Source: Leuctra nigra
Taxonomy: Eukaryota > Arthropoda > Insecta > Plecoptera > Leuctridae
Direction: 5' to 3'
DNA: 64,000 bases
NCBI GenBank assembly: GCA_934045905.1
Contig: OW203763.1
Span: forward strand, 39,214,724-39,278,723
Both the position numbers and the translations under genes were made by a program. Positions 13,026 to 64,000 of this stretch are shown here, one piece after another. The notes under the pieces were generated by a model. It did no database searches. It was not told the origin of the DNA and saw nothing but the letters and a program-made list of their open reading frames with translations. Numbering within the stretch: position 1 is the first letter of the stretch; every line of letters starts with the position of its first letter.

Positions 13026-13308
13026 ATGGCTGATGTGCATGCGGTGGCGATTTCTCAAGAGGCTCTTTCGGTTGCACAACTGGAATTAGGAGGAAATCCA
13101 AATGCTTTAGCCTTACGAAGGCCGTTCGATCCTGTGGCACATGAGTTGGACGCTAATTTCCGTCTGACACGTTTTGCTGATCTGAAAGGATGAGGGTGTA
13201 AGGTTCCTCAAGAGGTTCTAGCGAAACTCTTAGAGGGACTACAGCAAGATGATAATAATGCCCAGGACGAACATGCCCATTTCATGCACATGGCTATTCC
13301 GCGTATCG
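13026..13308 (+). CDS. Sps: SPS exon 1, with in-frame TGA
   Basis: Codons 1-94 plus one base. The start ATG is the first in this frame after a GC-rich leader. TGA at 13191-13193 is codon 56. The frame stays conserved on both sides ([10 protein letters not shown] before, GCKVPQEVL after), which is why a standard ORF search misses this exon. Donor CG|GTGAGT. Confidence 0.95.
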
Positions 13309-16300
13309 GTGAGTACACATTTTCTTTCGGCTTTGGTTCACAAGTGCTGCATGGAATTTAGCTCTAGTCTACCGGCATCATGGCCGACAAAAGGTTCTAC
13401 ATAACTTGCCGATTTGTTCCTTGCAATAAATGTTTTTACGCTTTAACTAAGCATTGTATCATCCCTAATGGGGTGGATTTCGTTATTATTTAGGGCACGT
13501 TGGTATTTTATAACGAATGACAGGTGTATAACAAGTGGTCTCGTCGAAGGTATGACTGAGGTGAAAATATTTGTAGGTGACTGTCAGATCTTGCTTACTC
13601 TACGATGCATCTACAAAGCGCTCGACCCCAACTAACCATAAGCTCAACATACAAATCTTGTCTACTCGGTAATATATGTTACCACGTGCGTTTATCAGTA
13701 TTTCCCGTCTCCACATTGTGGAAATAACCTAAACAACAGAGTTCTCGACGAAAAACACTTGTTACGTAAAAATTAACACAAATGTTATCAATAATAATTG
13801 TTTACTCTTATTGAGAGAAATTGAATTAAATAGTTTTCGTCAATAATGGTAAATAATTGGTAAATTAGTTAATGACAACCTATTTTTCTTTGGGTAGTAC
13901 TATTTTGGATATATTAGTTATTGAACCAAAAAGTACCTACCATAATTTAACATTTAAATACCCAGTTTAGTTGGTTAATTAATTACTTGCCTAATAGGTT
14001 ATTGTGCTTGAGGAGCTGTAGACCTAGTAGCCTACTCTCTAATCATTTTTTTTAAATATAATTATTAATATTATTGATTGTCAATATTTTTTAAATATAA
14101 TTTATATGCCTAAGTAGGTAGCCTTTTTCAAAAGCATGTGATGACAATATTTGACAAAATTGCATAATACTACATAATAACCCAACCCCATACAAAAGGC
14201 TTGTTATGTTGTGTCTATTTTTGTAGCAACAGGTATATTGTGAATTATCTCTTGATAATTGTAATAAGTATAATTTAGTATAGGTACTAGGGATGTTCAC
14301 GATTACGATTTAATTGAATCAATTAATCGATTATGACATTCAAAACGATTAATCGATGTTAGTACAAATAATCGAATTACATAAATTTTAATTCGCCGCC
14401 TTGAAAATGGTTCCACTTAACAATGCCTTCATTCTGTCAACATTTTTCTTTGTGTGCGTAATATTTTAGTGATAAATTTATGTTTGTGTGTATTTTCCCA
14501 AGTTTCAGTGTGTATTTCTAATTCGCATTACCATTTATCAGTGATGATTAAATTAATTACGGAACATTACAGCTTCTTTGAAGTAAAAATGACTGACTTC
14601 CCGGACACATTTCATTGTTGAGGTTAATTTTGCCGTAAAAGATGATAATATGATGACCACTCTGAACATGATGATATAAATACGATTTAATTAGATGATT
14701 AATCGATTTAAATTAAATAATCGTTGAACACCCCTAATAAGTACTCACATTAGTCTGGTCAAATGTACATACAATTTGAAATATAATTAAAATATTTTAA
14801 TTTAATGCATTTCTATGTCAAAAATTATGATTATGGACTACTTATTTTTAGATAACAAATTTATCTGAATTTAAATACTGATTATGAAATGATTTTTTTT
14901 TTTTGAAAAAATGTGTAATGGATGTTGCAGGAATTGGCATGGATTCCTCCGTAACTCCGCTGCGCCATGGGGGTCTGTCGCTGGTCCAGACCACAGATTT
15001 CTTCTATCCTCTAGTGGATGATCCGTACATGATGGGTAACATTGGAGATTTGATGTATTTTAAATTACTTTTCACTCTAGTACCACCGTTCTATTAGTTT
15101 TGCTCAAGATAATATCAGCTATAATTTCTTTATCAATTCCAAGAATTCAACTTTGAACCACATTGTTTAGATAGGTCTAAATAACCTTGATTTTTTAGAA
15201 TATGTTGTCCAACAGGTACCAGATGTTAGGTAACAATGTAGTAAAGCTGATAACAATAATGTAATTACAAGTATCAAATATTGAACAAGTGATTATGATT
15301 GATCGGTCATTATGAAAATAACCCCCAGCTTCAATTATGATTTTTAAAATGCTAAATTTAGCTGAGTATCTAGCCTGATTTTGATACTTTAATTAATTGT
15401 CATTCAATGTCTTGGCATTGCATTTGCATGTAACAACAATACAAATTGGTGACAAATACTAAATAGGTAGGCTCATTATCATGGTACTTATATATAATTA
15501 CTGTTGGCTGTGTGCCTCTGTGGATTGCTTTGCAATACTCACTCTCTTCGACTATGTATTTTTATCACGGAAGATTTCAAGTTTTACAATGTTGATAGCT
15601 TCAAAGGTTCCATCCGGCTTTGGATGTAATTTGTTTGCACTCTGACTTCCCTGGTTGACATGTTGCGAGTGTCTGTTGACAGGTAAGATTGCTTGCGCGA
15701 ACGTGATCAGTGACTTGTACGCGATGGGCGTCACGGAATGTGACAACATGCTGATGCTTCTCGGAGTGTCCACCAAGATGACGGAGAAGGAGAGAGATGT
15801 CGTTGTGCCGTTACTTATGCGTGGATTCAAGGTGATCATTTGCTATACCTACACATTGTATTAATCAGGGGTTAATTTTGGGGCGGACGTGGGTGGACGC
15901 GTCCCCTCACTTTCTTCAGGGTGGACGCCGTCCGCCCACTTATTTTTCATAGAAGCAAAAGTTGGCTTAAAATTGTGTACAAATTGAGTAGAAATGCACC
16001 AAATTTGGTCCTGAAATGACCCACAATGTATTGGGGGGCCCCTCCTCCCACCCCCCATTGTTTTTGTGTGCAAATATGTTTCCCTAACAATAGCCGAGCG
16101 TCCACCCTTTTATTGTTGTCAATAGTGTTAAAAATTGCTAAGAGTTTGAGCTGATTTCTTCGTGCTACGAGCTGTGCTTGAGATGGTTCATCACATTGGT
16201 TGTAAAATGAACCCAATACATAGAGCTGCTAGGGGGGGGGGGGGGGGGGGATCTTTTGTGTTTTCCATTTTCTTTGGTCGGACATAGTTTGCTTATTTAA

Positions 16301-19300
16301 GTTAGTTTTTCCTACCTTAACGTGGCAGTGGATTATTTCATCAAAACAATTACTTGAAACTCTCCTTCCGATCTAAGTCGAACAACTACCTATGCAATAT
16401 TAGAAATATACTTTAAATGTTATCAAAGTACAACAATATCATTCTACTGCCATGGTAGGGTAGGACGGAAGCATTTTTTACATGGCTAACTATCGAAAAC
16501 TTGAGATTGGTTCAAGCTCACTTGCATCATCCGTTCACTATCGAACTCTTGTTGTAGGATTCTGCATTGGAAGCTGGCACAACAGTAACTGGAGGTCAAA
16601 CAGTTGTCAACCCGTGGTGCACGATCGGTGGGGTCGCTTCCACAGTCTGCCAGCCCAACGAGTACATCGTGTAAGTTTACTGCTTGCCTCATATTATCAG
16701 GAAAAGTTTGATTGTGCTTCTGTCGACTGGTTAACGTTCCAGCTACCAACATTGACAATCTTTCGATGTGTGATTCATGGGAACCAGAATGGGGACGAAC
16801 TATGTAGCTGCCACATAGCTTTTGCTAAGCCACATCAAGTTACGTTTGGTCCTTTTTGATTCCATAGGTCTTATACCCCAATTTGCTTGCCTACTAAACA
16901 TGTCTCTCCCTCCACTGAGATAAAGTAAGTCATTACCTACTGCCCATTAGTGGTAAAAAACTTAGTTTTACCATAGGATAGGGCATATTATATAGATGAG
17001 AAGGCTAGAAGATTCTATTCTCTATGATGGATGGTACATGTCCTTAAATCAAAGTCGAAGATGGGGTAGGGTGCTGGGTATTAGTGGCCTACCAGGTAGC
17101 ATTTAAATGTAAATTGTCAGATGGTCTGGACTCTGGAGATTATTGAAAGAGATACATGATCCCATCCCAGTAGTCCTGTAGTCCTGTCCTCAAGTAAGTA
17201 GGTGAAAAAAATCAGTTCTGACCCATAGCAAAGAAATAGACAAGCAGATTCTCATTGGTTGGAAACCAGTTGGGGGAGATTTTCCACAGACCCACTTCGG
17301 GGCCTTAGCTAATTTCTGTTCGCCCCACCACATTACTAGACATGCCACCCACCGCTACTGATTTTCATCATGTTGTATTGGATCTAACATTTTTATTTCC
17401 AGAATACCTACAAAAAGCAAAATATAATAATGGCTACCATCTGGTAAAATGACAAAATTCTTATTGAACTCCCACCCACACAGTCACAAAAAGTATTTCC
17501 TCTTGAAATAAGGGAGCGACATGACATTAACTCCATGGACACGTTAATTTAAGTATCGCAAGTTATATTCTGAAAAGCAAGTGAGAATATATATGAAGTA
17601 AATCGGGAGGTGAAAGTTGCTCATGTTGATTATCTTGCTTTAGGCCCGATAATGCGGTTGTCGGTGACGTGTTGGTGCTGACGAAACCGCTGGGAACACA
17701 GGTGGCGGTCAACGCTCACCAGTGGCTGGACCAACCGGAACGTTGGAACAGGATCAAGCTGGTGGTCTCTGAGGATGATGTGCGCAAGGCATACCAACGC
17801 TCCATGGACTCTATGGCCCGCCTCAACAGAATCGGTAAATCCTCATCATTTTCTTTTTCAATAATTTATATCCGTTCAATTTTTCAATCTTGTCATCCAT
17901 TCTTATTATATTAAAGATTAAAAAGGAGGTAAGAAGTAGAATGTTTATAGGAAGACTTTAAGTAACGCAAAATCATTCTCCGGACGTTATGTATCTTCCT
18001 CATCTTTGTCCTCTTCAACCTCCACTCTTTCCATCGGCGTTCAATAAATCTGATAGGCTGATAAATGTAAGATCGCACCATCAGAAGTCAGTCTAAGCGA
18101 TCTCATTGTCTCACTCGAGTAGGTGACCTCACATTTCAATGATAATAACAAGCTTTGATTGGTTATGGGTAGTGATGGCAATTTTCTGAAAAAATTTTTT
18201 TTTGAAAATTTTCATGAAAATTTTCATGAAAATTTTCAATGCGTTGAAAATTTGTTAAATTACTTTTTTTAGAAGAAGATTATTATTTATTTACTTTTTT
18301 TATTGCTTTATTGCACACAATTGTTAATAATATATCTGAAAAAAGCGTTAAATCAAAATCAAAATGAAAGCCAAATATAAGCCCAAATCTCAGTTTTTCT
18401 TCATTGTAATTTTGGCCAGACTGTAATTTCTACATAGGCGGGAAATTTGAATGCTGTTTTTATTTTTTATTTTTTTTTTATTTAACAATCACACAATACA
18501 ATTATACAATAATGATCATTTTGCACATTTACCACTCAGACAACAACACGCATCAATCACACATCATACAAGAGATCAGTATGCATCCCAACTAGGCACA
18601 TAATTACAAATAAATGTATTTAATAAAATATAATTGAATTTAAGTATTTTTAAGAAAATTTCAAATTTTCAAGGGTCTCTGAAAATTTTCTGAAAATTTT
18701 CAATTTTCTGAAAATTTTCAAATGAAAATTTTCAATGGTGCCATCACTAGTTATGGGACATGACCAGCAGTCATTCAAATTTGGTCAATGTTCAATTTTT
18801 GTTTGGCCGAGTGTACAGCTTTGGAATAATATCTCGATCATCCCTACGCTTATACCCTCCCGCCATACAACGGAGATCGTACAGTGGTATACCAGCGCTC
18901 CGTTGTATGGCTGGATGGTATTAGCGTTGGGATGATCGACACATTTTTCCACATACTAGTACCTAGGTTTAATTATTTTGGTTTTTGAATATTAGTGTTG
19001 GTTGACAGTGTATATTTATTTTATATTGTGAAAATTAATATAATTTTTAAAGTAAAATGCTGCATTTTGATGTATGTATGTAATAAACACCTATCACTTG
19101 GGGACTAGAACTATTGCCATATAACTGGGACATTTTAGGAAATAAATTGACTATTCTTATGGGAAAGTGGTTGGAACTTAACAAAATTGACATCCTATTG
19201 TACATACCTTGGTACACCCAACAAATCATAAAATGGTATTTGAACGAAACAGATTGGCTGCTAGTCAGGTTCCTCGTCAATCGAAACTTGTTATTATCAA

Positions 19301-22300
19301 TGATATTAGAGCTAAACTACTAGAGGTGACAAGTTAGCATAACTTCATTGGATGATGTTATCACATTTTTTTCAGCCAATCCATTTCTTTCAAATACCAT
19401 TTTATCATTTGTGGAGTGTCCATATTTCTTACATTTCTGTTTTGCCCAACTCATAATAAATAATATGTAATGGGTAGTTTGTTAGTGATGGATAGCTACT
19501 CTTCAATGGCAATGTTTGTTGCAGCCGCACGGCTCATGCACAAGTACAATGCACACGGTGCGACGGACATCACCGGCTTCGGACTGCTCGGACACGCGCA
19601 GAATCTGGCACGACACCAGAAGAACGAAGTGTCGTTTGTCATCCACAACTTGCCCGTCATCGCTAAGATGGCTGCCGTGGCGAAAGCATGTGGCAACATG
19701 TTTCAACTGCTACAGGGACACTCGGCAGAAACTTCCGGTAAGAGTTCACAGCATGGCAAACCACGTATACGTTTCATTTACTTCTGGATGTATTAACTTA
19801 TTAATTATTATTTCTAATTTAACCCTCTTAGTGCCAAGAGCCGATATATCGGCTCTGAGAGTTTGTGCGAAACTTGCCAAGGGCCGATATATCGGCTAAA
19901 TTTTAAATTAAATCTCGCGCCTCTTAATGTCTTTGGAATGTTGAACTGCTTGATCGACTGGGTTGGTAATAGTGTGGTAGTTTATTGAAAAAATGTTTGG
20001 TGGCGGTAGTGTACAGATTTCTTACTATTTTGACTCAAAATGACATTTTTTCAATTCAAAATGGCGTCTACTTTTGCTGGCATATATTTTATACATTATT
20101 TCATAGCTTGTGTAGTTTTAATCACAAAAATATGAAATTAATCATTAGTGTTGAGAAAATATCAGTTAATCAAAAAAATATATTCACTTTATTGGGAAAA
20201 ATTCATTACAAAATTTGTGGCATAATAAACATTTTTTTAATTTTTAATTTTTTTTTATAATCCAAATAAAAAAATAAAACGTGTACAATAAGAATAATCA
20301 TGAACTAAATTTTTGTCCAAGTCCTCATTATACTTTTATCACCATGTAAAAAAAAAAATCAACAGTTTTGGTGAAGCACAAGCAAAGATATCAACTTTTT
20401 ACTGCGACTCAACAATTTGTGAAAATATGGCCTGGCATTCTTCGCATATATACAGGAAATAATGCTGGCACTAAGAGGGTTAAGGTGTTGCAAGCGCAAG
20501 CGATTTTGCCGCTTGTTGCAGGCACTTTTTTGGATACGATTGGAGACAAAATGGGTTGACGAAATGATTTGAAATTTTAACCATAAATAGATAGAAGACA
20601 AACTCAGGGTTATCTTCACTAAGTACATTTTTAATTTTTTAAATTAGTAATAATTTGTTGATTTTTTTTGGTGAAAAATGGTTAAAAAAATTTGTCTCAC
20701 TGAGTGCCGTATAAAATTTAATTTTAAAAATGTGCCAAGTGATAACCCTAAGTGGGTCTTTTATCTAATCATGATTAAAATTTGAGATTAATTGGTTCAC
20801 GGGTTTAATCTCCAATCATATAGGAAATTTCATAGTTTTGAGCAGTTTTGACCGGCGCCTTATCAAGGTACAAAGCAAAAATGTAGAAGTGCTACTAATA
20901 TACAATCAGACTGATCATGTGAACATCCTATCAAAGTTACACCCCCTTAAGAAACAATTTTTCTCTCAATTTGCTAAAATGGCCAAGCACCACCTTAAAA
21001 TAAAAAAAATATAGATAAATCAATGTCATTGGCTTGTGATTTTACAAAAATAAAACATTTTCCTATACATGCTTTTGCACAGGGTAATACACTTTTATGA
21101 ACTAGGTACTAGGAAAACGCTTAGTGTAACGCATTGATGAGCGAGCACTGAATGCGCAACATCTCGAATTGAAATTTTGGAACGCACGAAACATAACATC
21201 CATATTGAATTGAAATATTGTACACTTAATCAACATAAAAGTACCTACCTGCTTTTTATTGAAACTGAGATTATCCATCCATCCATGAGACTGATCTGAC
21301 ATCCATCCACTCCGGTTACATAAAGAAAATCAGATCCAAGTTGTTTTGGTCCAAGTTTCCCATTTTCGATACCATCACATCACAGTTCTGTCAATATATT
21401 TCAAACAGTTAAAAATGGCAATTAGTGTATACTTTCTTGACCGATTGGGCTGAAAATTAGTAAAATGAGATAAAGTGGTACAAAAAAGTTAGGTATGTAT
21501 GATAAAGTTATGGAGGTACCTACATAATTTTAATTTTAATAGCAATGCAAAATTTGAAGTTGATCTGACCATTTTGATTTTTGACCAATTGGGAGACATT
21601 TTCATTTTTGAACCAATCCGAGGGCAGCTTTCGAAAACTATACACGATTAAGTTAGAATGATATTAGTATGTGTGCAAAATTTCAGCTCGGTTGGATAAA
21701 AATTGTGGCCTGTGCCTACGGGCCAAACACAAAAAAGGGTCCAAAAGTGCAGAATGGAGATGCTCGCTCAATAATATTATTATATTATGTATAGGTAGGT
21801 AGAGCCACGTATATTTCGCGAGGCGCCATATCGCGATAATACCGTATTAACTCGTGTATAAGACGCACTCGTGTATAAGACGCACCCTTGTTTTGAGAAG
21901 TCTATTTTAAGAAAACACTTAGCATGCGTGTATAAGACTCACTAAAATGATGTAAACATTGTGTGTTTGTATACATGATGTCCATCTAAATGTTGGTTGT
22001 CCAGCTAACTGAGCTATTTGAATGAAAATCACTGCCAACTTGTTGTAAACAAACAGTAATTTCCTGCGTCTGAGAAAGGGGGGAGGGGAGTCTCTTCCCA
22101 GCAGCTGTTGCTTGCTCTAAGAGGCATGCACCTGCCTTTCCTCTGCATTCCAAAACAAACCCAACTCCTCTCCTCCCCTTCCATTAAGATCGCCATTCAA
22201 CAGTGTTTAGTCTATTTTATGTCTGTCAGAGCAATGTTTTTCAGACGTAAACATATATTTTGTCTCCTGATCTAAATGCAAGGGAAAACATTTTGTTGCA

Positions 22301-25197
22301 CACATTTAATATGTTAATAGTGTTGTGTCTAGACACAGTATGAGTAGTCCAGACAGAGTGAGAGGGAAAGGCAGAGATAGACAACATGTGGCAGTCTACA
22401 ACAGCTCTGTTTACAAACATCCACCTTGGATTTACTGGGAAAAAAGCTTGGTATGCGTGTATAAGACGCAGGGCTGTTTTCAGAATCAAAATATTGACAT
22501 ATAATTGCGTCTTATACACGAGTTAATACCGTAATCTAAGTTGTTCAGCAGATAACCCTCTTTTTGCTCAATGTGCATGAGTAATGTAATTTGAAGTTCA
22601 AGTACTAATTTATTTGCAAAATAAAACGAAATTGAAGAAAAATCATCAAAAAATCAAAATAGGTTGTTTTACTGCAAAAATAAGCACGAAATCGCGTCAT
22701 ATTTTCCAAAATAACATTATAAATAGAAGGGCTGTGCGAGCAGCTATAAATAAATTCGAGCAAGTTTCGAACGAGTTTTACAAATTTGCTTGAAATTCGA
22801 GCAAATTTCGAACGAGTTTAATAGTTGCTTGAAAATCGAGCATATTTCCTAGTTGCTTGAAAATCGAGCAAACTAGTTAAGGTAGGTTATGTTTCATCAT
22901 TTATTTTTACGTACCTAGTAGTTATACACAGGTGCAGACCTCATAGTGTTCCTTAGATCTGGAACTCACAATAGATAGCGAGCGGGTTACTAGTTGTGCA
23001 ATATTAACAATTCAATCATTAGCGATAAAAGGGACAGAATGAAAATCTGTGTGAAGAAGTGCAGTTTATTTTGTATGTCTTCACATTTCAATACAATCAG
23101 TGCTCGTTGACACGATATGATACTTATATTTTTGATAAAAATGTGCTGTTGTGCTGTTCCAAGTTTTCAGTGAAATTAGGCTTTGTTTTATGGAATTATT
23201 AAGCGAGCGGAGCGAGCGTCTCCACTTGAAACTTATGGCTCGAATCTGTGTGCATTTGGCGTCTCCTGCCAAACGAAGTAATGGATCAGGCCAATTTTTT
23301 CACACAACTTAAATTACTATTCTCGTTATGGTCAAAATGATTTTCAGCAAGTTCGCTCCATTGGTTGCATCGGAAACTTGATGTGTAGTTATAGTTAGCT
23401 TGGCAATGAGGATGAAGGAAACTCTGTGTATATAACTGCAATAGTTTGACCCATCATCACCAAATTTTGCAAGGTCATTTGTACCAGCATTATAAGTGAT
23501 TTTTTACAAATCTGTAATGAGCTTCAAGAGTAATAGAGATTTTACTGACATTTGTATACTTAATTTAAAACGGCCTATAGCCACACCACCATTTGACCTA
23601 TCAAATGGTCTTCGATTAATCTGATCAATCAAACTCATATTTTGCATGGTCGTTCAGACCAACATTGTCTCTTATTTTACAAATTTTCAGCCCTACCAGT
23701 CAAGAACATAGATGCACTTATTGACAGTTTTAATAACTGTCAGAAATGACATTTCAAAACAGAAATTCCACTGCATTCTGGGTTGCTCTATGTAGCAAAA
23801 CAAAGTTTATAGATGGCTATTCTCAATATCAATGTAAGACAGATTCTTTTCTTAGTGGATCATATTATTGCAATACATAATGTAGTCAAAATGTAATGTA
23901 GGTATTTCATATACATAGGTATAAGTATACCTTATCTAAAATAATTTATTTTACGATATGGATTGTGTTTCACAGAACTATGAAAACAACGTTTTGACTA
24001 GATAGCATCATATTTTACACATTTCCAGCCCAATCGGTCAAGAATTTACAGACTTATTGCTGTTTTAAGTGTTTGAATATCTGTCCAAAGAGATTGATGG
24101 AAAAATAACAGTACAATAATCTGTTATTTAATTGATCCAGAGTGTTTATGAAAAGTTGCAAGGAAAATTGGTAATAATTAATGTAAGTTAGTTATCTTTG
24201 ATTGAATGGATCGTGCTATGATTGGCGATGTCGTGCGTGTCGGTGCTCGCTCATCAACGCGTTACACCGAGCGTTTTCCTAGTATTTTAAATAAAAAATT
24301 ATCGATATCTTTGTCAAGTGACTTGCACAATAACTAAATAATTAATCATTAATTTCTCAAAAACAAATTTTTAGCCATCTCCAAATTTTGTGTGATTGTA
24401 CCTACGTATATTAGAATAATATTACCAAGTTTAAAAAAAATCGGAGATAGTCTTTTTGACCTTTGACCATGTCTAGATGTAGGTCAATTTTGTGGGGCCA
24501 TTTAAGGTGTCCTGGGTATGAAATTGGATAGGGAATGTCATTACCTTTCCAATTAGACCATTCCCAGCTATGTAGCTAGGATAGGAGCCGAATAATTACA
24601 AGAAAACCAAAAAGTAACTCGCGAAAAGGTCACCGACGGGCGACGGGTCACAATTTGACCCGCCATACCTTTGTAACCAAGAGCCCCAAAATTATTTTAA
24701 AAAATCATGGTTGCTACTGTCTATGAAATTTCATGGAAATTGAAGAAAGTCAGAACAAAATGTTTTTATTTTGGGTGGTTTCTTTTGGAATGACCCTGTT
24801 TGTTGTAATTACTATATAGTATCAATATTTGTATCTCTTCAATGATTTTTTTTATATGAAAGTGAATGACTTGACCCTGTACCTACACTTTTTTTGCATG
24901 AAAAATGCAATTTTTCCTGATACTTGTGATTTCTTGTAAATGAATGCTACGAACACGTGTATGTAGCGTTGATGACACACACAGTTGGTCTTATGAGTTT
25001 GCCTTCCATCAGGGGGGCTGCTAATCTGCTTGCCGCGAGAGCAAGCGGCCGCCTACTGCAAGGACATCGAGAAGCAGGAGGGATACCAGGCGTGGATCAT
25101 CGGGATCGTGGAGAAGGGCAACCGCACGGCGCGCATCATCGACAAGCCGCGCGTCATCGAAGTGCCAGCCAAGGAGAAGGACGGCGAACTCTGGTAG
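13026..25197 (+). CDS. Sps: Selenophosphate synthetase with an in-frame UGA at the active-site position (7 exons)
   Basis: Exons: 13026-13308, 14931-15035, 15683-15831, 16558-16670, 17644-17834, 19525-19737, 25013-25197. All twelve splice sites are GT or AG, the phases agree, and the sum is 1239 bases (412 codons plus TAG). The enzyme family converts selenide and ATP to selenophosphate for selenocysteine synthesis. The SPS1 branch in insects has another, less clear role. Codon 56 is TGA in the context LKG-UGA-GCKVPQ, exactly where SPS2 has Sec, human SPS1 has Thr and Drosophila SPS1 has Arg. Next come C58, the catalytic-type K59, GIGMDSS (from residue 95), [19 protein letters not shown]-like [67 protein letters not shown] and [20 protein letters not shown]. 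Every other exon is intact, so a pseudogene is unlikely. It could be an SPS1-UGA read-through gene or a true Sec-containing SPS2. I found no convincing SECIS downstream by eye. Confidence 0.95.
13191..13240 (+). promoter_or_regulatory. Recoding signal: UGA, GGGUGU hexamer and 13-bp stem-loop
   Basis: The TGA is followed at once by GGGTGT, a hexamer class linked to stop-codon read-through. After an 8-base spacer, 13202-13214 (GGTTCCTCAAGAG) pairs with 13227-13240 (CTCTTAGAGGGACT). The result is 13 pairs with one bulged A at 13232, two G-U pairs and a 12-base loop. Position and shape match the stem-loop placed just 3' of the UGA in selenocysteine redefinition elements and in the read-through element described for hymenopteran SPS1. 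Seen directly in the sequence; the function is inferred. Confidence 0.75.
14286..14735. mobile_element. About 450-bp MITE with GTTCA ends, copy 1 (SPS intron 1)
   Basis: Ends GGGATGTTCACGATTACGAT and, inverted, GGGGTGTTCAACGATTATTT. The interior has repeated ATTAATCGATT words. The same family lies in the opposite orientation at 27597-28116. Confidence 0.75.
14931..15035 (+). CDS. Sps: SPS exon 2
   Basis: Residues 95-129. Encodes [20 protein letters not shown] and [16 protein letters not shown]; the Asp in GMD belongs to the ATP/Mg-binding site of the family. Acceptor TTGCAG, donor GG|GTAACA. Confidence 0.95.
15683..15831 (+). CDS. Sps: SPS exon 3
   Basis: Residues 130-179, from [20 protein letters not shown] to LLMRGFK. 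Acceptor TTGACAG, donor AAG|GTGATC. Intron phase 0 at its end. Confidence 0.95.
15880..16260. repeat. Family B dispersed repeat copy 2 (SPS intron 3)
   Basis: Matches 9411-9690 in TGGACGCGTCCCC, CAGGGTGGACGCCGTCC and AATAGCCGAGCGTCC. A homopolymer of about 18 G stands at about 16232-16250. Confidence 0.7.
16558..16670 (+). CDS. Sps: SPS exon 4
   Basis: Residues 180-216, with [20 protein letters not shown], the conserved TGGQT loop. Acceptor TTGTAG, donor GT|GTAAGT. Confidence 0.95.
17644..17834 (+). CDS. Sps: SPS exon 5
   Basis: Residues 217-280, with [20 protein letters not shown] and [15 protein letters not shown]. Acceptor CTTTAG, donor CG|GTAAAT. Confidence 0.95.
18170..18749. mobile_element. 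580-bp hAT-type MITE with 8-bp duplication (SPS intron 5)
   Basis: The ends TAGTGATGGC and GCCATCACTA are inverted, and GTTATGGG flanks both sides exactly (18162-18169 and 18750-18757). The eight-base duplication and the TAG start fit hAT. Subterminal GAAAATTTTCA palindromes are repeated at both ends. Confidence 0.88.
18833..18941. repeat. Short hairpin with about 42-bp arms
   Basis: TCGATCATCCC and CCATACAACGGAG on the left return inverted on the right (CTCCGTTGTATGG, GGGATGATCGA) around a loop of about 20 bases. A miniature foldback in SPS intron 5. Confidence 0.75.
19208..19422. mobile_element. MITE family A copy 2 (SPS intron 5)
   Basis: Same length and interior as 3779-3993 (GGTATTTGAACGAAACAGAT and TTTCAAATACC at the ends), with more decay in its termini. 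Confidence 0.8.
19525..19737 (+). CDS. Sps: SPS exon 6
   Basis: Residues 281-351, with [19 protein letters not shown] and [18 protein letters not shown], the most conserved C-terminal-domain core. Acceptor TTGCAG, donor CG|GTAAGA. Confidence 0.95.
19823..20479. mobile_element. 657-bp piggyBac-type MITE (SPS intron 6)
   Basis: Perfect 14-base inverted ends CCCTCTTAGTGCCA flanked by TTAA on both sides (19819-19822 and 20480-20483). Just inside the left end are two copies of GCCGATATATCGGC, about 40 bases apart. No transposase. Confidence 0.9.
21107..24288. mobile_element. About 3.2-kb non-coding element with ACTAGGAAAACGC inverted ends (SPS intron 6)
   Basis: The left end (TACTAGGAAAACGCTTAGTG, then a GATGAGCGAGCAC block) is mirrored at the right end (GTGCTCGCTCATCA, then GCGTTTTCCTAGTA). 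TA at both edges suits a Tc1/mariner-like duplication. The interior lacks a transposase ORF and carries phrases shared with 9732-10690. It contains a nested element at 21840-22532. Confidence 0.7.
21840..22532. mobile_element. Nested pogo/Tc1-like MITE, about 690 bp
   Basis: Ends TACCGTATTAACTCGTGTAT and, inverted, TACGGTATTAACTCGTGTAT, each followed by AAGACGC. Internal extra copies of GTGTATAAGACGCA stand near both ends (about 21875 and 22455). TA-type target site. No transposase. Confidence 0.75.
25013..25197 (+). CDS. Sps: SPS exon 7 (terminal)
   Basis: Residues 352-412 and stop TAG. Encodes [16 protein letters not shown] and [20 protein letters not shown]. It is clearly GC-richer than the intron around it. 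Acceptor CATCAG. Confidence 0.95.
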
Positions 25198-27150
25198 AGC
25201 TCGCTCAACAACTTGCTGCTCTTAGTTACGGTTTTTCTATTCTAAAAAAAGTACATATATATATAAAAATATGAACGACGATGACGTTCATAAGGGCATC
25301 TGTTCGATACTAACAATTCGATAACTTTTATAAAGTTCTAAATTCCCTTTAGGTATAGCATTGGTTGGCATTGATCCTTGTTTGCTTGAATGTCGGGTGT
25401 GAATCTTTTTTTGATAAATTTTTTGAGGTGAGGAAAATGCTATGACCTGGATGCAGTACTTGACAGGTTGAGAACCTCCCTGTGGTGTGGCATTGATAGA
25501 TAACTGATTACCTACGAGACGATGACAGGGCTATTTCCAGTGGCTTTGTTGTCATGTGATTGGAGGGATCGTGATGGAGAGAATTAATGGCTATTAATGT
25601 GGAGCACCAATCGTGAAGCTGAAGATGATACTGATATTACAGTTAGAAATGTCTGGAATGGATGAATACTGTTGGCTGGGTTGTTGGAGATATGATTATC
25701 TGGATCCTAGATGTTGATTTGATATTGCGATTATCTTGAATGCCGTTATTAGACATTGCTCTATCTTCACACTTATGTAAGTGTGAAATAGGTTCAATTT
25801 ACCATTTTTGGTCTAATGAGACTCATTAGCTAATAGCTATCTGTCTTTTATATTACCTTGTACTACCTTCTTGTGGGCATTCAGCTTATTTGCAATAGAA
25901 TTATTTTTGATTCCTTGTTACACATTACAATATACAACAGAGTTTTTCCTGTAGGAACCTAATTTTATTTTTAAATTTGATATACACCTAAGTAATTTAG
26001 TTAATGAACTTTTGAAGCGATCCATTTTTTGAAGGCCATCAAAGTGCTTTGTAGGTATATTATTACATGACTTGTTGCATTAGGTCATTTTGACAAGACG
26101 GAGCCATTCACTGGCCATGTATGAAAATGGCAGAGTCTATGACATACTAAAATGTCTCATGTGCCAACCTGTTGTAAAAGTTGAAAGCACATTCCTTTTA
26201 AAAAATGGTTTATAATTATGTATCCTCCATTATTTAAGAAATTAATGCAAGTGCTTAATATCATCTTACACCTGTTTTTAGGATAGGTACAATTTTTTCT
26301 TAATTCATAACGTTATGCAAGTGGTAGTGAAGTTGCATACCTTTTATTACTATTATTACATAGTCCTGTATGCGCAAAGGTCCTGGCTCAAATGTACTTT
26401 TTATTTCATCAATAACTCTCACTATGAATTAAAACAGGGAAATTTGGTGTTTCTTTTCAAATCCTGCTTTAAAGATGCTTTTAGAATATTGATGAAATGA
26501 AATAGTTATGTTCATGGCTACAATCTTTCACAAATAGTTTTGTAACAAAATTTAAAGTTTCTTGTGCTTGTAATTAAATATGTGTATTTATTCACTCCCA
26601 AGATTTTCCTAAGTCCTTGTCCGAAATACCACCCGAAATCCGCCACTGGCAGGGGGCGTGGCAATAGAGCCAGCCGACGTCCAACCACCAACAAAACAAC
26701 AAACAAGTAGAAGAAACATAGAAGTTCGAAGATAGCACAAAGTAGTCATTGCCTGATAAGAAGTCGTAGAGTTTACAACTTCGTGGACTTAGGGTAATTA
26801 TCTCTATACATTTCTAATTTTCGGGTGGCGAGATAATTAACCTTTTTTTTAATATTGATGTTTTGGCATTGACATCAAGTGTTTCTTAGGTTAGATTTGG
26901 GTAAAAGATGTTTGCATTAAACGTTCAGATGTCTCAACCCACAAAATTGAAGTGTATCTTTCACTTTGCTGTGGTAATATAATGTAACTGCTCCTAAGTT
27001 GAAAAATAAATCTATTTTGAATCGTTGAAAATGCACATTTCTTTCTTGAGTTTCTAATTACAATGGTAGCTTGTAGCATAAAGTACTTGTAGTATACTAA
27101 AACACTGTGAAGTGTAAATAAATGCATAGTGAATTGATCTTCCTTCCAGA
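25198..27150. other. SPS 3' UTR and intergenic spacer
   Basis: A small perfect hairpin (TATGAACG...CGTTCATA, 25270-25292) lies 73 bases after the SPS stop. Beyond that, AT-rich sequence without recognisable coding exons. A 5' non-coding exon of the next gene may lie here but cannot be placed. Confidence 0.4.
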
Positions 27151-31221: not shown

Positions 31222-32367
31222 ACCCGTAAGACGATAATGCAATAATTCTTTGTTCTGGTTGTGTTGAAAGGGCCTTCAATGTAGCAACATAAAACAACCA
31301 ATATTTCTCTAAATATGTTTATTCAAATAAATGAATGTACAATAATACGATTACATACCTATTTGTTTAGGTATTTACTTATGGCAACAATAATAATTGT
31401 TCATTTGGATTGTTGATTATTTTTTATGAAAAATATTGAACAATTTACTAAAGACTTGATACGTTTTTGACACTAGAATTGTTACAACTTGAGAGTTTAT
31501 AAATGTATACCTATTGGTAGTAATTTGGGAACTCATACAATAAATATGAAATAGACTATAGTAGGTAGATTGTACCATACTTTACTACGGTGGTGACAAG
31601 AAATATAAAATAATGCGTACTATTGAATGTTGATTGATATTGGTACTACATTCATTCTCTGATCATGCTTTGATATTGATATTGATTTTCTGATAATTTA
31701 TTTTATACCTACATGACTTGTTTATCACTTTTTAAGCTTTAATTTGCAATTGCTCATTGGGAGAACTCCATTAAATCGATTCAGAAACACGACGAATGGA
31801 GGTAATGTACAACAAAAGTATGATATTTAAACCCAGGTGTTGCATTTTTAAGTTCATTTGGAACAATCTTTTCCATGGACTCAAGCTATTTTTAGATTAA
31901 TATGCAAGTGACAATTGTCACTTAATTTGTCACTTTTTAACTGATAAACAGTCAACACGTTTAAATGTGTTTACTGTTTATCAGTTAAAAAGTGATAAAT
32001 TATCAGAAAATCCTACTTATTCTTGCCTGTAATGTAAAGTCAAACTTTTTTCTTGTAGGGGTTCATATTCGTGCATTGTCATCACTATTGTGATACAATC
32101 TTATCCTTCACTGATGCCTTTCACAAGGTATAGTTTGAAAATTTCATGTCCCATCTTAAAACGTCTCAAACGAAAATAGAAATATTGAAAGGCTTCCATC
32201 CACTTGCTTATTCGCTATTGCTCACTATTTTGAAGATACACTTCACTATTTTCACTAATTTTCTTAATCATAGCCTCAGCAGAGCCAGGCTCCACTAGTG
32301 AGGATGTAATATAGAGAATGGAGGAGAGGAAACCCGGGGGTACCGGCTTAGGCTCTTTACTCTAAGG
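31222..32367. other. Intergenic spacer with one hairpin
   Basis: Apart from the PLGRKT 3' UTR, the only structure is an inverted repeat at about 31917-31999 (CACTTTTTAACTGATAAACA and its complement, around 20 bases). No exons recognised. Confidence 0.5.
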
Positions 32368-38339: not shown

Positions 38340-38440
38340 TTCTTTGATTTATTTAATAAATAATTGTTATGAATTTTCATTTTATAATTGCATACTCTCC
38401 TCCTAATAAAGGATTAAACATCCCAATAAAGGAATATGAA

Positions 38441-38640
38441 TCCTCCCAATGTGCGAGCTTCGACCTCGCGGCATGGGAAGATTCCTCCCAATATGCGAGC
38501 TTCGACCTCGCGGCATGGGAAGAATCCTCGCAATATGCGAGCTTCGACCTCGCGGCATGGGAAGAATCCTCCCAATATGCGAGCTTCGACCTCGCGGCAT
38601 GGGAAGAATCCTCGCAATGTGCGAGCTTTGATCTCGCAGT
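38441..38640. repeat. 42-bp tandem repeat with internal hairpin
   Basis: Four to five units of 42 bases built on ATGCGAGCTTCGACCTCGC and GGCATGGGAAGAATCC. GCGAG and CTCGC in each unit can pair. Open in several frames on both strands, because 42 is a multiple of three. Confidence 0.9.
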
Positions 38641-52119: not shown

Positions 52120-55100
52120 CTGCAGGACACAAACAATCAGGTTACAAGGATCATGTCGACCAGGTCCTTGTGGCATGGTTGTTGATCAGGATGCTGAGAC
52201 AAGTTGCCAGCACCTCCACAGCGTACTCCTAGCTCACAATCCTGCAGGACACAAACAATCAGGTTACAAGGATCATGTCGACCAGGTCCTTGTGGCATGG
52301 TTGTTGATCAGGATCCTGAGACAAGTTGCCAGCACCTCCACAGCGTACTCCTAGCTCACAATCCTGCAGGACACAAACAATCAGGTTACAAGGATCATGT
52401 CGACCAGGTCCTTGTGGCATGGTTGTTGACCAGGATGCTGCGACAAGATGCCAGCACCTCCACAGCGTACTCCTGGCTCACAATCCTGCAGGACACATAC
52501 AATCAGGTTACAAGGATCATGTCGACCAGGTCCTTGTGGCATGGTTGTTGGTCAGGTTGCTGAGACAAGATACCAGCACCTCCACAGCGTAATCCCGGCT
52601 CCTGGCGTACCTACTCTTAATCATCATCATAATCATTCATTTGTCGCCATTAATCTAGCTGCAGAACAGGGCTACGTTAAAAAAGTCGAGTAAAAGTCTC
52701 TACTCGAGTCTCTAATCTCTAATCTCTCATCGAGTCTCTATACCTCAGAGAGAGAGAAGTGTTTGTACCTTTCATTCGTGTTTCTGGGTAGAGTGAGAAC
52801 GGCCGGTGCGAGCTCGCCTATGACTCGGACGAGATGGAACTCGTCGCCCTCCTCCTGCCAGCACGGCTCGTTGGCAACCATGAGGTCGCTGTACACGTGC
52901 AGCAGGCGGCCGACGCGCATCCCCAGCTCCAGGAACAGCTCGAACACGAGGCTTAAGTCGCCTTCCATACGACACGTCTGGATCTCCAGCAGTCGCACCA
53001 ACGTCTCTGCACACGGAGACAGAGTACAGCGTTAAGAATAGGACTAGGAAAGAATTAGGGATAGCAGAACATCACTGGCCGGATACTGGACATTTGGCTT
53101 GCTTGTTTTTCTGCATTAATCTGTATAAAATTCTGCATGAAGACCAGTAGGCTCAAGTGGTCGAATACTGGCGGGTACCATGGTTCTAGTCAGCTTAGTA
53201 GTTACTAGTGGGTTGGATGACCGTTTAACTCTGGCTTGCTAGGTTGCTGCTGTTGGGCCAGAGAGACTGGGGTGTTTGAGTGTTAGTGTGACGACCTCCC
53301 TCCACCTGTTATCAGTCTCTCGACGGCGCGGATGGCCCCCTTGGTATCTTTCGTCAGGAGTAGGCTATGCCGGTATTGGGTTTTAAATACTCCCTTCTCT
53401 ATATTACATTCTCACTTGTGGACCCTCGGCTCTGTTGAGAATGTATGCTTAATAATAATCAGATCATTCTTGTCAATAAACAATGCTGTATGTACCTCAG
53501 AGGTAGAAGGCCCGATATCCATCTCAATTATTCTTGAAGTGAGCTAAAAATCCATAAATTCTACCTTCATTGAGTTATATTTGTAATAGTGACACCAGTC
53601 ATTTAACTATAATGGTTGACTTTGCAGTTGTTCGGGCCTTCTACCTCTGATGTCCTGAAGCTGTGCATGAGACTCACTGGTCGGGAAACATCTGGGATTG
53701 GAGATGTACAGATGTCCCAAGCTCCTGATCTTTGCCAACACGGCCTCCAGCTTGGCCTGGCCGTCGGCGTCCGCGCAGCCACTGATCTCCTTGTCGATGA
53801 TGCGCCCCCAGATGTTGGCCACTAGTGTGGGGTCGTGGTGAGAGGCAATGTCGACGATAGCCAACTCCACGTCGTACAGACCGAACACTTCGGCGTAGGA
53901 CTCGAACAGCACGGTGATCTCAATGAAGCCTGGAAGTTGAGAGGAACAATATCATCGTCCGTGACCTCAAGGGGTTAATAGATTGCATACTGCACTTGAA
54001 GGTAAACATTGGAGATAATGTTTCCTAAATATTGTCAGAACCTTTTGAACCATTCATCATCATCATCATCATCATCATCGCTCCAAGGATTTGGCAAACT
54101 TTCCTGTTCCATCCTCAATTTTCAAGCCACCTGAATTTCGGGTACCAATATCTCTTCTGCCTTTTAGTTGAAAGGTCAAACTCAAGATCTATTTTGGTAG
54201 GCGGTCATCGTCAATTCTACACATATCATTCTACCAGTCATACCTTCCCTCATACAATTTTTCATTCATGAACAGTTTTAATTTCATGGATATTTTAACT
54301 CCTTTCTTATGTCAGTGTTCCCTATCTTGTCTTGCAGTTGACACCTTTTAACTCTTTGCAAGAACTTTATTTCTGCTAATTGTATTCTGTTCTTGCACCA
54401 TTCACATTATGAAAATAGTGAAATTTAATGGAAAAAATCTAATTTTTTAGTCGAACTTTCAACATTAACACGCACTTATAAACTCGATAATTTAAGCCCA
54501 AACTCGACTAAAAGCTGGAAATTGAGACATTTTAGATTTAAGTCGAGATAGGCACAAATATCGTTTTTAGGTTGGTGTTTATGTTCCAAGGTCGACTAAA
54601 ATATTACATCTGTTAATAATTTTCCATAATTTTCATTATGTGAATGGTTCAAAAGTTATGACGACATTTATTATTGTTTCCAATATCTTCGAGTGAAGCT
54701 TGACTCCTCAGTTTAGTCCAGTCACTTGTTGAGTTGTTGACGTACCTCCTTGAAGTGTGTCGAGGGCTGTGTGGATGTCCGGTCGGCCGTCAGGTACCAT
54801 CTCGTACAACTCCTGATAGATGCGCTGCTGCAGTTGACCCACAGCAATGATGTCCTGTATTTGATGCACAAGTTCCCTGTGCGAGCCCCGTGGAAGAGAG
54901 AGCAAGGTGAGCTTGGCGCGGGCCAAGTAGTCCAAGCGTTTTGTCAGTGTCAAGCTCCTGGAAGACATCAACATCATCATCAACATCGTCATCATCATCG
55001 TCATCGTCATCGTCGTCTGTGCATTCAACGGGGAAAGTGTTAAGATCATAGATCCTGAAATTACCCGATGAATCGACTGACATGATGAAACGTTGTATTT

Positions 55101-58100
55101 GTTAAATTACACAAATTGAGAACAAGTCAAAGTGAATGTTCAAAGTGAATGTGAACTTTTGATTTAATAGATTTGGAATGGGAATTTCTTGGATTAATTT
55201 TTAAATTTACATCAATGAAGCATCAAGAAAACGAACTCTTGATTAAATCTAGTGGAGCGGTCGCTCCACGCCAGCCAAGTCGTACGGCGCGCGCACACAC
55301 TCATTTAAAAAGGCTGGAGCAAACCCACTTTTACTGTAAGCATCAAAGTGGCATTTTCGGCCTACTGGATCTTAAAATTGGAAAATCTCACATTGTTGCG
55401 ATATATCTTAATTTCGAGCTATGGCCCACCCTACAACATATACCAAATTTGGGAACAATAGGTTACGCCCTTTGCGCGCTAGAGGACCGTGAAAACAGTG
55501 TTTTAGGGCGGTTTTCATAATAATAATAATCTCAGTAGTAGTAGTAGTAGTAGTCTCCTGGAATTCAAATCCGGTAAACAGGCCACAGCCTAAACGGCTG
55601 AACCGATTGATCCCACATTTTTACCACGTGTGCACTTTTGGCGTCTGATTTAACCTTCACCCCATGAATTTTTTGTGCCGCCATTTTGAAACCGGAAGTG
55701 ACGTCATATCTCGTCAACAGCTGGACTGATTGGAACGAAAATTGCGCCAAACGATCCAGACGGTCATCTATATGCATGATCAGTAGCAAAAGACTAAACA
55801 TTATGTTAAAGAAACCGGAAATGACGTAATGAAATTTGAAATACATCGATTGGCTTTTTGGCAACAAAGGGTGATCCGATTATTTTGATATTTATGTAAC
55901 GTATGTACTTTTGACGTCTAATGTGACTTGTTATAAAACCAACCGGAAGCCGCCATTTTGAAACCGGAAGTGACATCATATCTCAATAACGGCTAAATAG
56001 ATTTCAACGAAACCAGCGCAATACAATTTAGACTGTCAACTTTATGTATTATCATCAATAATATTTGCAGTTTCCCATACCTAAACCGGAAATGACGTCA
56101 CACATTTTAATAATCTTACAAATTTTTATTTTGATGCAATAAATATACTATTTGAGACAGCTTATAAAATTGTAATCATGTTTCAAATATACTTCAAGGG
56201 GTCAGAGATTTCAGCAGCCATTTTTAAACCGGAAGTAACGTCATATCTCAAAAACTGGTAGACAAATCGGTATGAAACTAGCGCCAAACGATTCGGAAGG
56301 CCATCTCTATGGATATATGGAATATATATCCATATATATGTTCATATGGAATATGAACAGTACAAATAGAATTTTCCTATTTATGAGACCGGAAATGACG
56401 TCATTCAAATGTATAAATTATTATAATTCCCTCCTATACAATAAATACATATTCAGAAAGCTTAAAATGATACACATCATTTATAGAAATAAATTCTATG
56501 TGGCATTGCAGAAAGTTCAGCAGCCATTTTGAAAACCGAAGTGTTTCCATATCTCGGAACTGGGTTGACTGATTGGAATGAAACCTTTGCTATTCTTCGT
56601 GAAAGATCATTTAAAGCAATTATTTAGGACCATACGCTGCTATTCATTAGTGGTAACGAAATTGTAAAGGGTGATGATTTTTTAAAAGAATTTAGTAATT
56701 GTTCATTTCATATGTGTCACAAGTTGTTAGAATAAACTAAAAAAAGGTGTGATATCCCCATAAAAACACTTCGTGTAAAAATACCAGCCAAGTCTCTTCT
56801 ACTAAAAAAAAATATATGAAATCTAAAATTTCTGCACTGAAAAGTAATGATATCAAAAAATTTGCCAAGTCAAAACTTTATTTGAAAATCAAAAAATACT
56901 TGGCGCATCGATTTTTTAGGGCATTTTAGGTATACTATATGTTTGTATATTTTATGTATATTTTAAATCTGGCCTATACTTCTAAGCTATTAATATACAC
57001 GATGCGCCAAGTATTTTTTGATTTTCAAATAAAGTTTTGACTTGGCAAATTTTTTGATATCATTACTTTTCAGTGCAGAATTTTTAGATTTCATATATTT
57101 TTTTAGTAGAAGAGACTTGGCTGGTATTTTTACACGAAGTGTTTTTTATGGGTTTCCTCTTCCTGATAAGTTTGGTGTTATATTAAATGAATTACTTTCC
57201 TTTGGACAGGACACAAACTTTATTTTTTATTATAAATTGCACAATATTTCGGCCACTGTCTGCGGCCTTCTTCAAGTGACTGTAAACAATTATTGAAAAA
57301 TTGACAGGTATAAAAACATTATGATTAAAAAAGACAAACAAATCACAATCCATTCATTATGCTTATCAAAAACCAAAGACTTCAAACAAAAGATAAACCA
57401 ATAAATAGGTTGACATTTATATATAATAGGTTGACAAAGACCAGATAATGAGAAGATGGCAAAGTGTGAAAAGTAGTTAATGGAAGAATAGAAATAGAAC
57501 AAACAAAATTTTGATGTCAATTTTTAGAACGTATTAGTTTAGGATAAGAAATGTCAACCTATTTATTGGTTTATCTTTTGTTTGAAGTCTTTGGTTTTTG
57601 ATAAGCCTAATGTATTGTGATTTGTTTGTCTTTTTTAATCATAATGTTTTTATACCTGTCAATTTTTCAATAATTGTTTACATTCACTTGAAGAAGGCCG
57701 CAGACAGTGGCCGAAATATTGTGCAATTTATAATAAAAAATAAAGTTTGTGTCCTGTCCAAAGGAAAGTAATTCATTTAAAACGAACTCTAATAATACAT
57801 CCAGGAATTTCTCTCCAAATCTATTAAAACCATTCATTTTTCGAGTTGTGGCTGAAGTGCACCTTTAAGCGTTCCATATTCTTATATCCCCTACTTTATC
57901 CATACGATCTTTCAATACGCAGCCCAAAGAAAACACAGATTACTGTAATAAGAGCTTACAAAACTGAATCAATGTTTGCATGTGGTTATTTTCCGTTTGC
58001 TCTCGGCTTTCGGCCCATGGTACCCCGTGGATTCTTACTTGCTCTTTGTAGCCAGCGTGAAGAGATGATCGGCGGCGTTGGTGTATTCCTCGTTCTTGTT

Positions 58101-61576: not shown

Positions 61577-63384
61577 AGGTTTTGAAACTTTAAGGCTGAA
61601 GGGCCGCATTGAGTAGGTATTTAAAATAGCAGAACCAAATAAAATTATGTTTTCTTGAAGATACATTCATGTAAATGAAATAAGTAAAGACTTGGTGTTC
61701 ATAAGCTGAAGCGTGCGTCAGAGAAATCAATGGGGTGATGGGAAGGGGTGGGGGAGTGGGAGGCGCAAGGGAAAATGGCGCCCCGGGCAAGACTAATGTA
61801 TGCGTCCCCCCCCCCCCCCCCCAAATATATAACATTTTCAACACCGCACGACCTCATTCGGGTCCGGTGCGAACAGCCCCGGGAAAATTTTGAATTTCAA
61901 ATTAGGAATTGGTGCATTTTGGTGCTGCTTGGGCACCGGTAATCAGTAATATTACGGAATGTAATAGCCCCGCAGGGCGTTATTTTTTAGAATTTAACAA
62001 TTGAAAAGTGATTCTAGGACTAAAAAATGTACGAACTGAAGCAAAATACCCTCCAATTGCCCTTGGTGCCCTTGTTGTTCCGCAGGGAGATTTTTTAAAA
62101 TTTAAGCAATTTATAAATGATTCTGGGATGCTAAACTTAATTTTGTATGGTGAATGGGCAGGCAGTCTGATCGAGTGGGGGGAAGGATAATCTCCCCCAT
62201 CCCCCCGTTCCTACGCGCCTGGTAGCACTAGAAACATGCTGATCCGCGATTGGATTTAGTACATTTTTACACTTTTGGCATATCATTATGCAACCTTGTG
62301 ATTTTCTCAATATTTTTGGTATTTGAGACTGGAAAATAAGTACTTTCTGATTGAATGGTTACAAACCTAACCAAATCATGTGCCCTCGAATACATGTAAG
62401 ACGGACAATAATTACAAACTTATTTATAAAAACACAAGGAAGAAAAGGGGGTTCGGGGGCGAAGCCCCCTAGAAAATTTGATATCGAGGCCAATCATTTT
62501 GGTGCAATTTTGATGCTAACTTCACCAGATAGTGTTGGGAGGAAAAGCACGATATTTCTATAAAGAATTTTAATTTTGTCTGAAAGTATGAACTTGTTTT
62601 CGTGATATTTAGCGCCCCCCTAGACCTTCATTAAATAATTATTTAATGAAGTACCTATAAGCATTTGTTTTCATGATATTGTCTTATATTTTGAACGTGT
62701 TATTTTATAAATTTCGTAAATGGCAAGTCTAAGGGGTCGTAAGCCTCCCCCTGGACCTTTTTTAAAGAAATTTTAACTTTAATAAGCACTTGTTTTCGTG
62801 ATATTTTCTTATATTTTGACCGTGATCTATGAAAAATTTAGTACATATGCCATGTGCAGGGGGGCGCATGCGCCCCCCTGGACATGGCGCCCCGGGCGGT
62901 CGCCCGCCTCACCCGCCCCTCCCGGAGGGGTGGGGGAGGCGAAGGTTTTGGCGAGGAAAATGGTGTATTCAAGCAAGAAGATGAGGGGAAGACGAATGGA
63001 TGTAATTCAGAGTGAATGTTGATGTGCAGAGAGAGTATGTGGCAGATCGAAGGGAAAGGAGAGAAGGGTAACAAGTAGTGAAGGAGAAATATATAGTGAG
63101 TTCTGAGGTGTAAAATCAGCTTACTCTCAAGCAAAGCAGAGGGTAAAACAATTATGTCCAGGAAAGGAAAAATAAAACATTGACAGTATTTTCAGAAAAG
63201 TTGGTAAAGATCATGGTGGTATACAGGAAAAGACTAAAAGTGGAATGAATAAGACTGTGGGAACAAGAACAAATGTAGGCAAAGTGAATTAGAAATCTGA
63301 TGGATAATAATTGACCAATATGAAATAAGTTTCTATAGGAGATCCATTTTCGGAATCTGGTGAACAGTCCTTGCTCAAGAGAGA
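61577..63384. other. Gene-free region with dispersed C/G-run repeats
   Basis: Contains CCCCGCAGGGCGTTATTTTT near 61966, a second CCGCAGGGAGATTTTTT near 62078, and GGGGGCGAAGCCCCCTAGAA near 62454. GGGGGCGCATGCGCCCCCCT near 62859 is palindromic, and GGCGAGGAAAATGG lies further on. It may belong to the same repeat class as 11.4, 36.8 and 50.4 kb. No exon of the upstream part of Nup155 recognised. Confidence 0.4.
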
Positions 63385-64000
63385 GGTCGCTTACCCTGGG
63401 ATAGTGTAATGGAATGGAAGTACCACCCCGACTGTAGGGGATGTTGGCAGTGTAGTCGTTGTGGAGACTCTATGATTCAAGAGAGAGGTTGCTTACCCTG
63501 GGATAGTGATATGGAATGGAAGTACCACCCCGACTGTAGGGGATGTTGGCAGTGTAGTCGTTGTGGAGACTCTATGAATCAAGAGAGAGGTTGCTTACCC
63601 TGGGATAGTGATATGGAATGGAAGTACCACCCCGACTGTAGGGGATGTTGGCAGTGTAGTCGTTGTGGAGACTCTATGATTCAAGAGAGAGGTTGCTTAC
63701 CCTGGGATAGTGATATGGAATGGAAGTACCACCCCGACTGTAGGGGATGTTGGCAGTGTAGTCGTTGTGGAGACTCTATGAATCAAGAGAGAGGTTGCTT
63801 ACCCTGGGATAGTGATATGGAATGGAAGTACCACCCCGACTGTAGGGGATGTTGGCAGTGTAGTCGTTGCAGACTCTATGATTCAAGAGAGAGGTTGCTT
63901 ACCCTGGGATAGTGATATGGAATGGAAGTACCACCCCGACTGTAGGGGATGTTGGCAGTGTAGTCGTTGTGGAGACTCTATGATTCAAGAGAGAGGTCGC
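63385..64000. repeat. 102-bp minisatellite, at least six units, running off the right edge
   Basis: Unit of 102 bases (34 codons) from GATATGGAATGGAAGTACCA through CCCGACTGTAGGGGATG to AGAGAGGTTGCTTACCC. Units alternate ATGATTCAAG and ATGAATCAAG, giving a 204-base higher order for four units. The fifth differs by a 3-base loss at TTGCAGAC. The open frame 63409-63912 is a by-product of the length being a multiple of three. Confidence 0.95.

Follow-up and report, generated by a model that had tools for sequence, protein, structure and literature searches.

A selenophosphate synthetase gene with an active-site UGA codon, a GGGUGU hexamer and hairpin, and a candidate SECIS element in the stonefly Leuctra nigra

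The SPS gene and its in-frame UGA codon

A stretch of 64,000 nucleotides from chromosome X of Leuctra nigra (contig OW203763.1), referred to here as the window, was found to contain a complete selenophosphate synthetase (SPS) gene on the plus strand, between positions 13026 and 25197. The gene comprises seven exons with GT-AG borders throughout, and the joined exons form a reading frame of 1239 nt, interrupted only by a TGA at codon 56. The features of the gene are as follows:

13026..13308, plus strand: SPS exon 1, from the start ATG to a GT donor; contains the in-frame TGA; matches its own protein with one TGA
13191-13193, plus strand: TGA codon 56, counted from the ATG at 13026; aligned to the Sec/Cys/Thr/Arg active-site position
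14931..15035, plus strand: SPS exon 2, from splice joining and a genome match with its own protein
15683..15831, plus strand: SPS exon 3, from splice joining and a genome match with its own protein
16558..16670, plus strand: SPS exon 4, from splice joining and a genome match with its own protein
17644..17834, plus strand: SPS exon 5, from splice joining and a genome match with its own protein
19525..19737, plus strand: SPS exon 6, from splice joining and a genome match with its own protein
25013..25197, plus strand: SPS exon 7, ending with TAG at 25195-25197; genome match with its own protein
27005..27122, plus strand: first AATAAA signals after the SPS stop, at 27005 and 27117, both 3' of the SECIS candidate described below

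The predicted protein belongs to the SPS/SelD family, with 93% identity to Timema SPS over 100% of its length. The best homologues among those listed were insect SPS1-Arg proteins, from Timema (93%) and the leafhoppers Cuerna and Homalodisca (91%); other SPS1-Arg identities were 85% for Drosophila kikkawai and 78% for Parthenolecanium. Insect SPS1-Arg (Drosophila SelD type) is thus of the same protein family, and the stonefly has UGA in place of the Arg codon. Human SEPHS1 (PDB 3FD5), of the same family by sequence and with Thr at the Sec position, was matched with an E value of 2.4e-189. A scan of IMG/VR for SPS gave no match.

In a comparison with the best 120 of 7949 homologues, codon 56 aligned with the SPS active-site position. 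The active-site motif was visible in 83 of these 120, with Arg in 73, Leu in 6, Trp in 2 and Cys in 2; the remaining 37 were without the motif, skipped it or began after it. Exon joining and homologue alignment therefore bear out the first-pass annotation, which had described an intact seven-exon SPS gene with TGA at the active-site codon. The position of the UGA and the intact frame form the strong part of the observation; the hexamer and hairpin described below are, by themselves, moderate evidence.

Several database entries were also unusual at this site. Two metagenome SPS proteins (P0009 and P0057) have Trp at the Sec position, which could be TGG, or UGA under another code, and two mite proteins, from Panonychus (P0083) and Halotydeus (P0092), have Cys; metazoan SPS-Cys is reported in nematodes only in the sections of Mariotti et al. 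2015 (PMC4561486) cited here. Three crustacean entries (P0095, P0117 and P0119) are 326-327 aa long and begin just past the UGA site, and P0124 and P0125, grouped with them by length only, are likewise of 326-327 aa; these entries look as if annotation had truncated a UGA gene.

Sequence elements associated with the UGA codon

Immediately downstream of the UGA lie a hexamer and a stem-loop, and a SECIS-like fold was located 3' of the coding sequence:

13194..13199, plus strand: GGGTGT hexanucleotide adjoining the TGA; leaky-stop context; identical hexamer in the deduced DNA of an ant and a wasp
13202..13240, plus strand: stem-loop, SRE/HRE-like; arms 13202-13214 and 13227-13240, 13 pairs, a bulged A and a 12-base loop
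26401..26500, plus strand: candidate form-2 SECIS, from predicted fold and scans; no Rfam match
26401-26414/26487-26500, plus strand: helix I of the SECIS candidate, 14 pairs
26424-26427 and 26474-26475, plus strand: core of the SECIS candidate, ATGA opposite GA in the predicted fold
26429-26438/26463-26472, plus strand: helix II of the SECIS candidate, one mismatch
26440-26442, plus strand: AAA of the SECIS candidate, 12 nt past the core UGA
26443-26447/26457-26461, plus strand: helix III of the SECIS candidate in the centroid fold; in the MFE fold the third A forms one further pair

The hexamer and the stem, with its 13 pairs, single bulged A and 12-base loop, were both found where the first-pass annotation had placed them. 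Bases 13180-13260 folded with a z-score of -3.33, and 1 of 200 dinucleotide shuffles was equally stable. Synonymous-codon shuffles reached the stability of the 54-nt segment starting 9 nt after the TGA start in 35 of 1000 cases; this segment (-19.4) was less stable than each of the twelve 54-nt coding segments listed. The best hairpin segment ranked fifth of 395 across the coding sequence, four overlapping segments at coding positions 1044-1053 being more stable. The structure at the UGA is therefore stable, moderately so by comparison with synonymous shuffles, and the GGG-UG[C/U] motif of the SPS1-UGA HRE directly follows the UGA. The hexamer itself is cheap evidence, because Gly-Cys is conserved after the UGA and GGGTGT is expected at ∼7% from the codon use of the gene (GGG for 6 of 32 Gly, TGT for 3 of 8 Cys).

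The gene models of the ant Trachymyrmex (P0085) and the wasp Cotesia (P0069) are predicted in another frame across the UGA segment, and their DNA was deduced from both reading frames together, with some bases chosen among fitting options. Both deduced sequences carry TGA GGGTGT, followed by a hairpin resembling that of the stonefly; over the same segment of 57 nt, z was -2.07 and -3.04 in the two species and -2.55 in the stonefly. The fold is kept despite synonymous differences, with changes in the upper stem.

The SECIS candidate lies 1.2 kb downstream of the SPS stop, is single-copy in the genome rather than a repeat, and folded with a z-score of -2.78, none of 200 shuffles being equally stable; the predicted fold places three pairs within the internal loop between helix I and the core. 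A first SECIS scan gave one hit in the window and none in three controls, a result that was weakened by a larger background. When both strands of the window were scored by anatomy, the candidate came first (25), ahead of a site in a minus-strand tandem repeat (22) and of 12 resampled windows (20 or below); the SECIS candidate of a GPx gene described below scored just 16 and so does not validate this scoring. By energy the candidate reached -21.8; the most stable site in 18 further segments of the window reached -16.1. Over 228,478 bases, scanned on both strands, four sites reached -21.8, of which the SPS candidate was the fourth, after sites at the SepSecS locus (-23.1), at the GPx candidate (-22.9) and near a tRNA-Sec gene (-22.8). 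As two unrelated sites outscore the SPS candidate, the chance of such a hit is ∼2% per 1.9-kb UTR. Rfam SECIS models had no match in the window or the 3' region at the thresholds tried.

No AATAAA or ATTAAA was present between the SPS stop and 26401. Weak TATAAA variants occur 5' of the candidate at 25262 and 25329, and an ATTAAA lies inside it at 26428. The SPS 3' UTR is predicted to run through the SECIS candidate.

Selenocysteine machinery and SPS copies in the genome

Searches of the assembly for the Sec machinery and for a second SPS, as proposed in the first-pass annotation, were performed on 536,196,549 bases in 144 contigs. The published assembly, ipLeuNigr2.1, has 536,298,261 bp in 174 scaffolds, with a BUSCO score of 98.9% and a QV of 57.2 (cited part of PMC10280035); 30 of its small scaffolds were outside the searches.

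Most of the Sec machinery was detected. Two tRNA-Sec genes with a TCA anticodon exceeded the cut-off of 47 bits, with scores of 71.8 and 66.7, and two weaker matches were tRNA-Ser; the same search gave matches in 14 of 14 control genomes, above the cut-off in 5. The two genes (L001 and L002) are on different chromosomes and both are called tRNA-SeC by ARAGORN. SepSecS was represented by five matches, which together cover positions 19-387 of 389, PSTK by one match (E 6.2e-24, under the curated cut-off of the family) within a 295-aa open frame, and eEFSec by a domain III match (E 8.8e-38) that had no counterpart in the control genomes. Nine L7Ae-type matches were found, and one of these, a weak match (E 8.7e-4) with one TGA inside it, resembles SBP2 by eye and is putatively SBP2-type.

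A second gene with an in-frame UGA was also identified. Of the GPx genes, one has Cys at the active site (NVASQCGLT) and one has UGA (NTATY-UGA-GFT). In the latter, the last exon runs to C7:12866337. Two SECIS-like sites lie 3' of this exon, and the better one, at 12868252, ranks first in that 3' region. Because both the Sec machinery and a UGA-GPx are present, L. nigra very probably makes selenoproteins, judging from its genome sequence.

All matches to SPS in the genome fell on the same gene, whether the query was the stonefly protein itself (7 matches, 8 candidates scored), TIGR00476 (6 matches at E<=1, none alone above the cut-off) or a mite SPS-Cys (7 matches at E<=10). A second SPS, and with it the separate SPS2 that accompanies SPS1-UGA in hosts making selenoproteins, was therefore not found with these three queries in the 144 contigs, few candidates being scored. 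It is likely that there is no second SPS in L. nigra, although a divergent SPS2 may have escaped detection, given the few candidates scored, or may lie on one of the 30 small scaffolds.

Decoding of the UGA codon and history of the gene

We consider it highly probable that the SPS gene of L. nigra itself encodes a selenoprotein, in which UGA-56 is read as selenocysteine. UGA-56 would be decoded by tRNA-Sec, eEFSec and SBP2 via the candidate SECIS in the 3' UTR, with GGGUGU and the hairpin serving as a local helper that reduces termination, and the enzyme would supply selenophosphate for itself and for further selenoproteins. Since the searches turned up no second SPS, the 'SPS1' function probably falls to this gene too, and some non-Sec read-through may account for it. 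The first-pass annotation had favoured an SPS1 read through in a host without other selenoproteins, and this is unsupported, because L. nigra carries Sec machinery as well as a UGA-GPx and the gene has a SECIS candidate; its second suggestion, a true selenoprotein SPS2, is supported by the SECIS candidate and the Sec machinery, although not proven. A Sec or Cys SPS was found in every genome encoding selenoproteins, according to the cited sections of Mariotti et al. 2015 (PMC4561486).

The stonefly gene most likely works like, and is, an unduplicated SPS2-Sec. As in the unduplicated metazoan SPS2-Sec genes treated in the same sections (PMC4561486), it has a UGA at the active-site position, a 3' SECIS (a candidate in the stonefly) and an SRE-type hairpin, and no SPS1 was found in the genome, a situation in which those authors expect dual function. 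It differs in that the stonefly is an insect: in those sections, all insect genomes examined have SPS1 as a separate copy that is not a selenoprotein, the duplication is placed near the insect root, and insect SPS2 lacks the hexamer that SPS1-UGA conserves. We are confident that this is a known type of SPS, in a group for which the main survey gives a duplicated state. The Leuctra gene appears to disagree with the insect pattern of Mariotti et al. 2015, unless a copy has been lost or missed.

The gene also resembles insect SPS1-UGA (SEPHS1-rt) with an HRE, having its UGA, GGGUGU and hairpin in the same place, and is 95% identical to the Cotesia protein and 93% identical to that of Trachymyrmex over 98% of the 326 residues past the UGA region. 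In contrast to insect SPS1-UGA, reported to be without a SECIS, the stonefly gene has a SECIS candidate, and unlike Hymenoptera, reported to be without most of the Sec machinery, the stonefly appears to have it (both reports from the cited sections of PMC4561486). SPS1-UGA with the hexamer and HRE was described there in Hymenoptera. The first-pass annotation had regarded such genes as mainly hymenopteran and had allowed for a host other than a wasp, bee or ant. The host is indeed a stonefly (Plecoptera, Polyneoptera); the stated distribution is incomplete, as Rhodnius and Pediculus each have an SPS1 with UGA plus a separate SPS2 (2015; PMC4561486) and a phylloxera paper of 2020 maps SEPHS1-arg and SEPHS1-rt in Paraneoptera (PMC7376646), in the portions cited. 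SPS1-UGA outside Hymenoptera is thus already in print and is not new. Literature searches, which did not reach supplements, found no paper on stonefly SPS or selenoproteins.

The same decoding would apply if the stonefly gene were the SPS1-side product of an old insect duplication that had kept its SECIS, the divergent SPS2 having been lost and the Sec-SPS function having fallen back on the remaining gene. This possibility, which overlaps the unduplicated SPS2-Sec reading, is judged unlikely but deserves weight. It is favoured by a 53-row tree (53 chosen from 136 proteins plus the stonefly protein, less Centruroides, which had no anchor), in which Leuctra belonged to a group of 29 insect-type rows (99/95). 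Its partner in this tree was P0024, the second of the Timema proteins (99/89). The SPS1-side history requires one more loss, and in a tree of 25 more complete sequences (24 of the 136 proteins and the stonefly protein, after mispredicted stretches had been trimmed from Apis, Cotesia, Trachymyrmex and Bulinus) no starred set contained Leuctra, which grouped with both Timema proteins at 43/36. AU tests on this tree rejected nothing: the p values were 0.40 with all insects together, 0.19 with Leuctra placed outside the insects and 0.30 with all Arg forms together. The trees neither back nor exclude an SPS1-side origin with loss of SPS2, and they do not date the SPS duplication. Timema has an Arg protein, P0001, plus P0024, whose gene model jumps over the UGA segment, a hint of an unannotated copy; this suggests that Timema may have a UGA copy beside its Arg copy.

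Returning to the unduplicated SPS2-Sec, a history can be put forward tentatively, at less than even confidence. Stoneflies may keep an ancestral state in which a single SPS gene makes two proteins from one UGA, the SECIS directing synthesis of the Sec enzyme and read-through at the hexamer and hairpin giving an SPS1-type form without Sec; the duplication would then have followed the split of Polyneoptera or been repeated, and the hymenopteran SPS1-UGA would be such a gene minus its SECIS. A single insect SPS with UGA, SECIS and hexamer would be the intermediate predicted by the subfunctionalization model of Mariotti et al., there placed before insects, and the hypothesis of dual function would become testable in an animal near the SPS1-UGA lineages. 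A single-gene state in stoneflies would change the date of the insect duplication, imply more than one such event, or reveal a loss. It also suggests that the hexamer and hairpin by themselves do not mark a non-Sec SPS1-UGA gene.

Against selenocysteine at UGA-56 stand the publication of the hexamer as a mark of SPS1-UGA and the SPS1-Arg identity of the closest proteins among the matches listed. The gene could accordingly be a SECIS-less SPS1-UGA paralogue, in which a standard amino acid is inserted, beside a missed SPS2, as in Rhodnius and Pediculus. Such a paralogue would fit the strong hairpin next to the hexamer, which together are its published marks (cited sections of PMC4561486), their deduced presence in the ant and the wasp, and the failure of the Rfam SECIS models to match. 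However, the SECIS-like fold sits where it would be expected, and three genome searches of an assembly with 98.9% BUSCO completeness found no other SPS; after these results the paralogue was demoted to an alternative, and we now regard it as improbable. A pseudogene, or an assembly error at codon 56, is scarcely credible, since nothing but the in-frame stop favours it, whereas the frame is open elsewhere, the splice sites are clean, the UGA falls exactly on the active site and the published assembly quality is high (QV 57.2; PMC10280035, cited part).

Elsewhere in the window, minisatellite arrays lie in long open frames at 1-991, 38438-38637 and 63375-63997; the first of these is in an ORF that resembles reverse transcriptase by eye, and the last has a cysteine-rich unit. 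A search with a retrotransposon-like ORF gave 486 candidates, of which none was significant. Frames on the minus strand at 53607-55106 resemble, by eye, a nucleoporin that we take to be of the Nup155 type. A hairpin at 31920-32005 matched several miRNA families below the cut-off, on both strands, and is probably a small inverted-repeat element.
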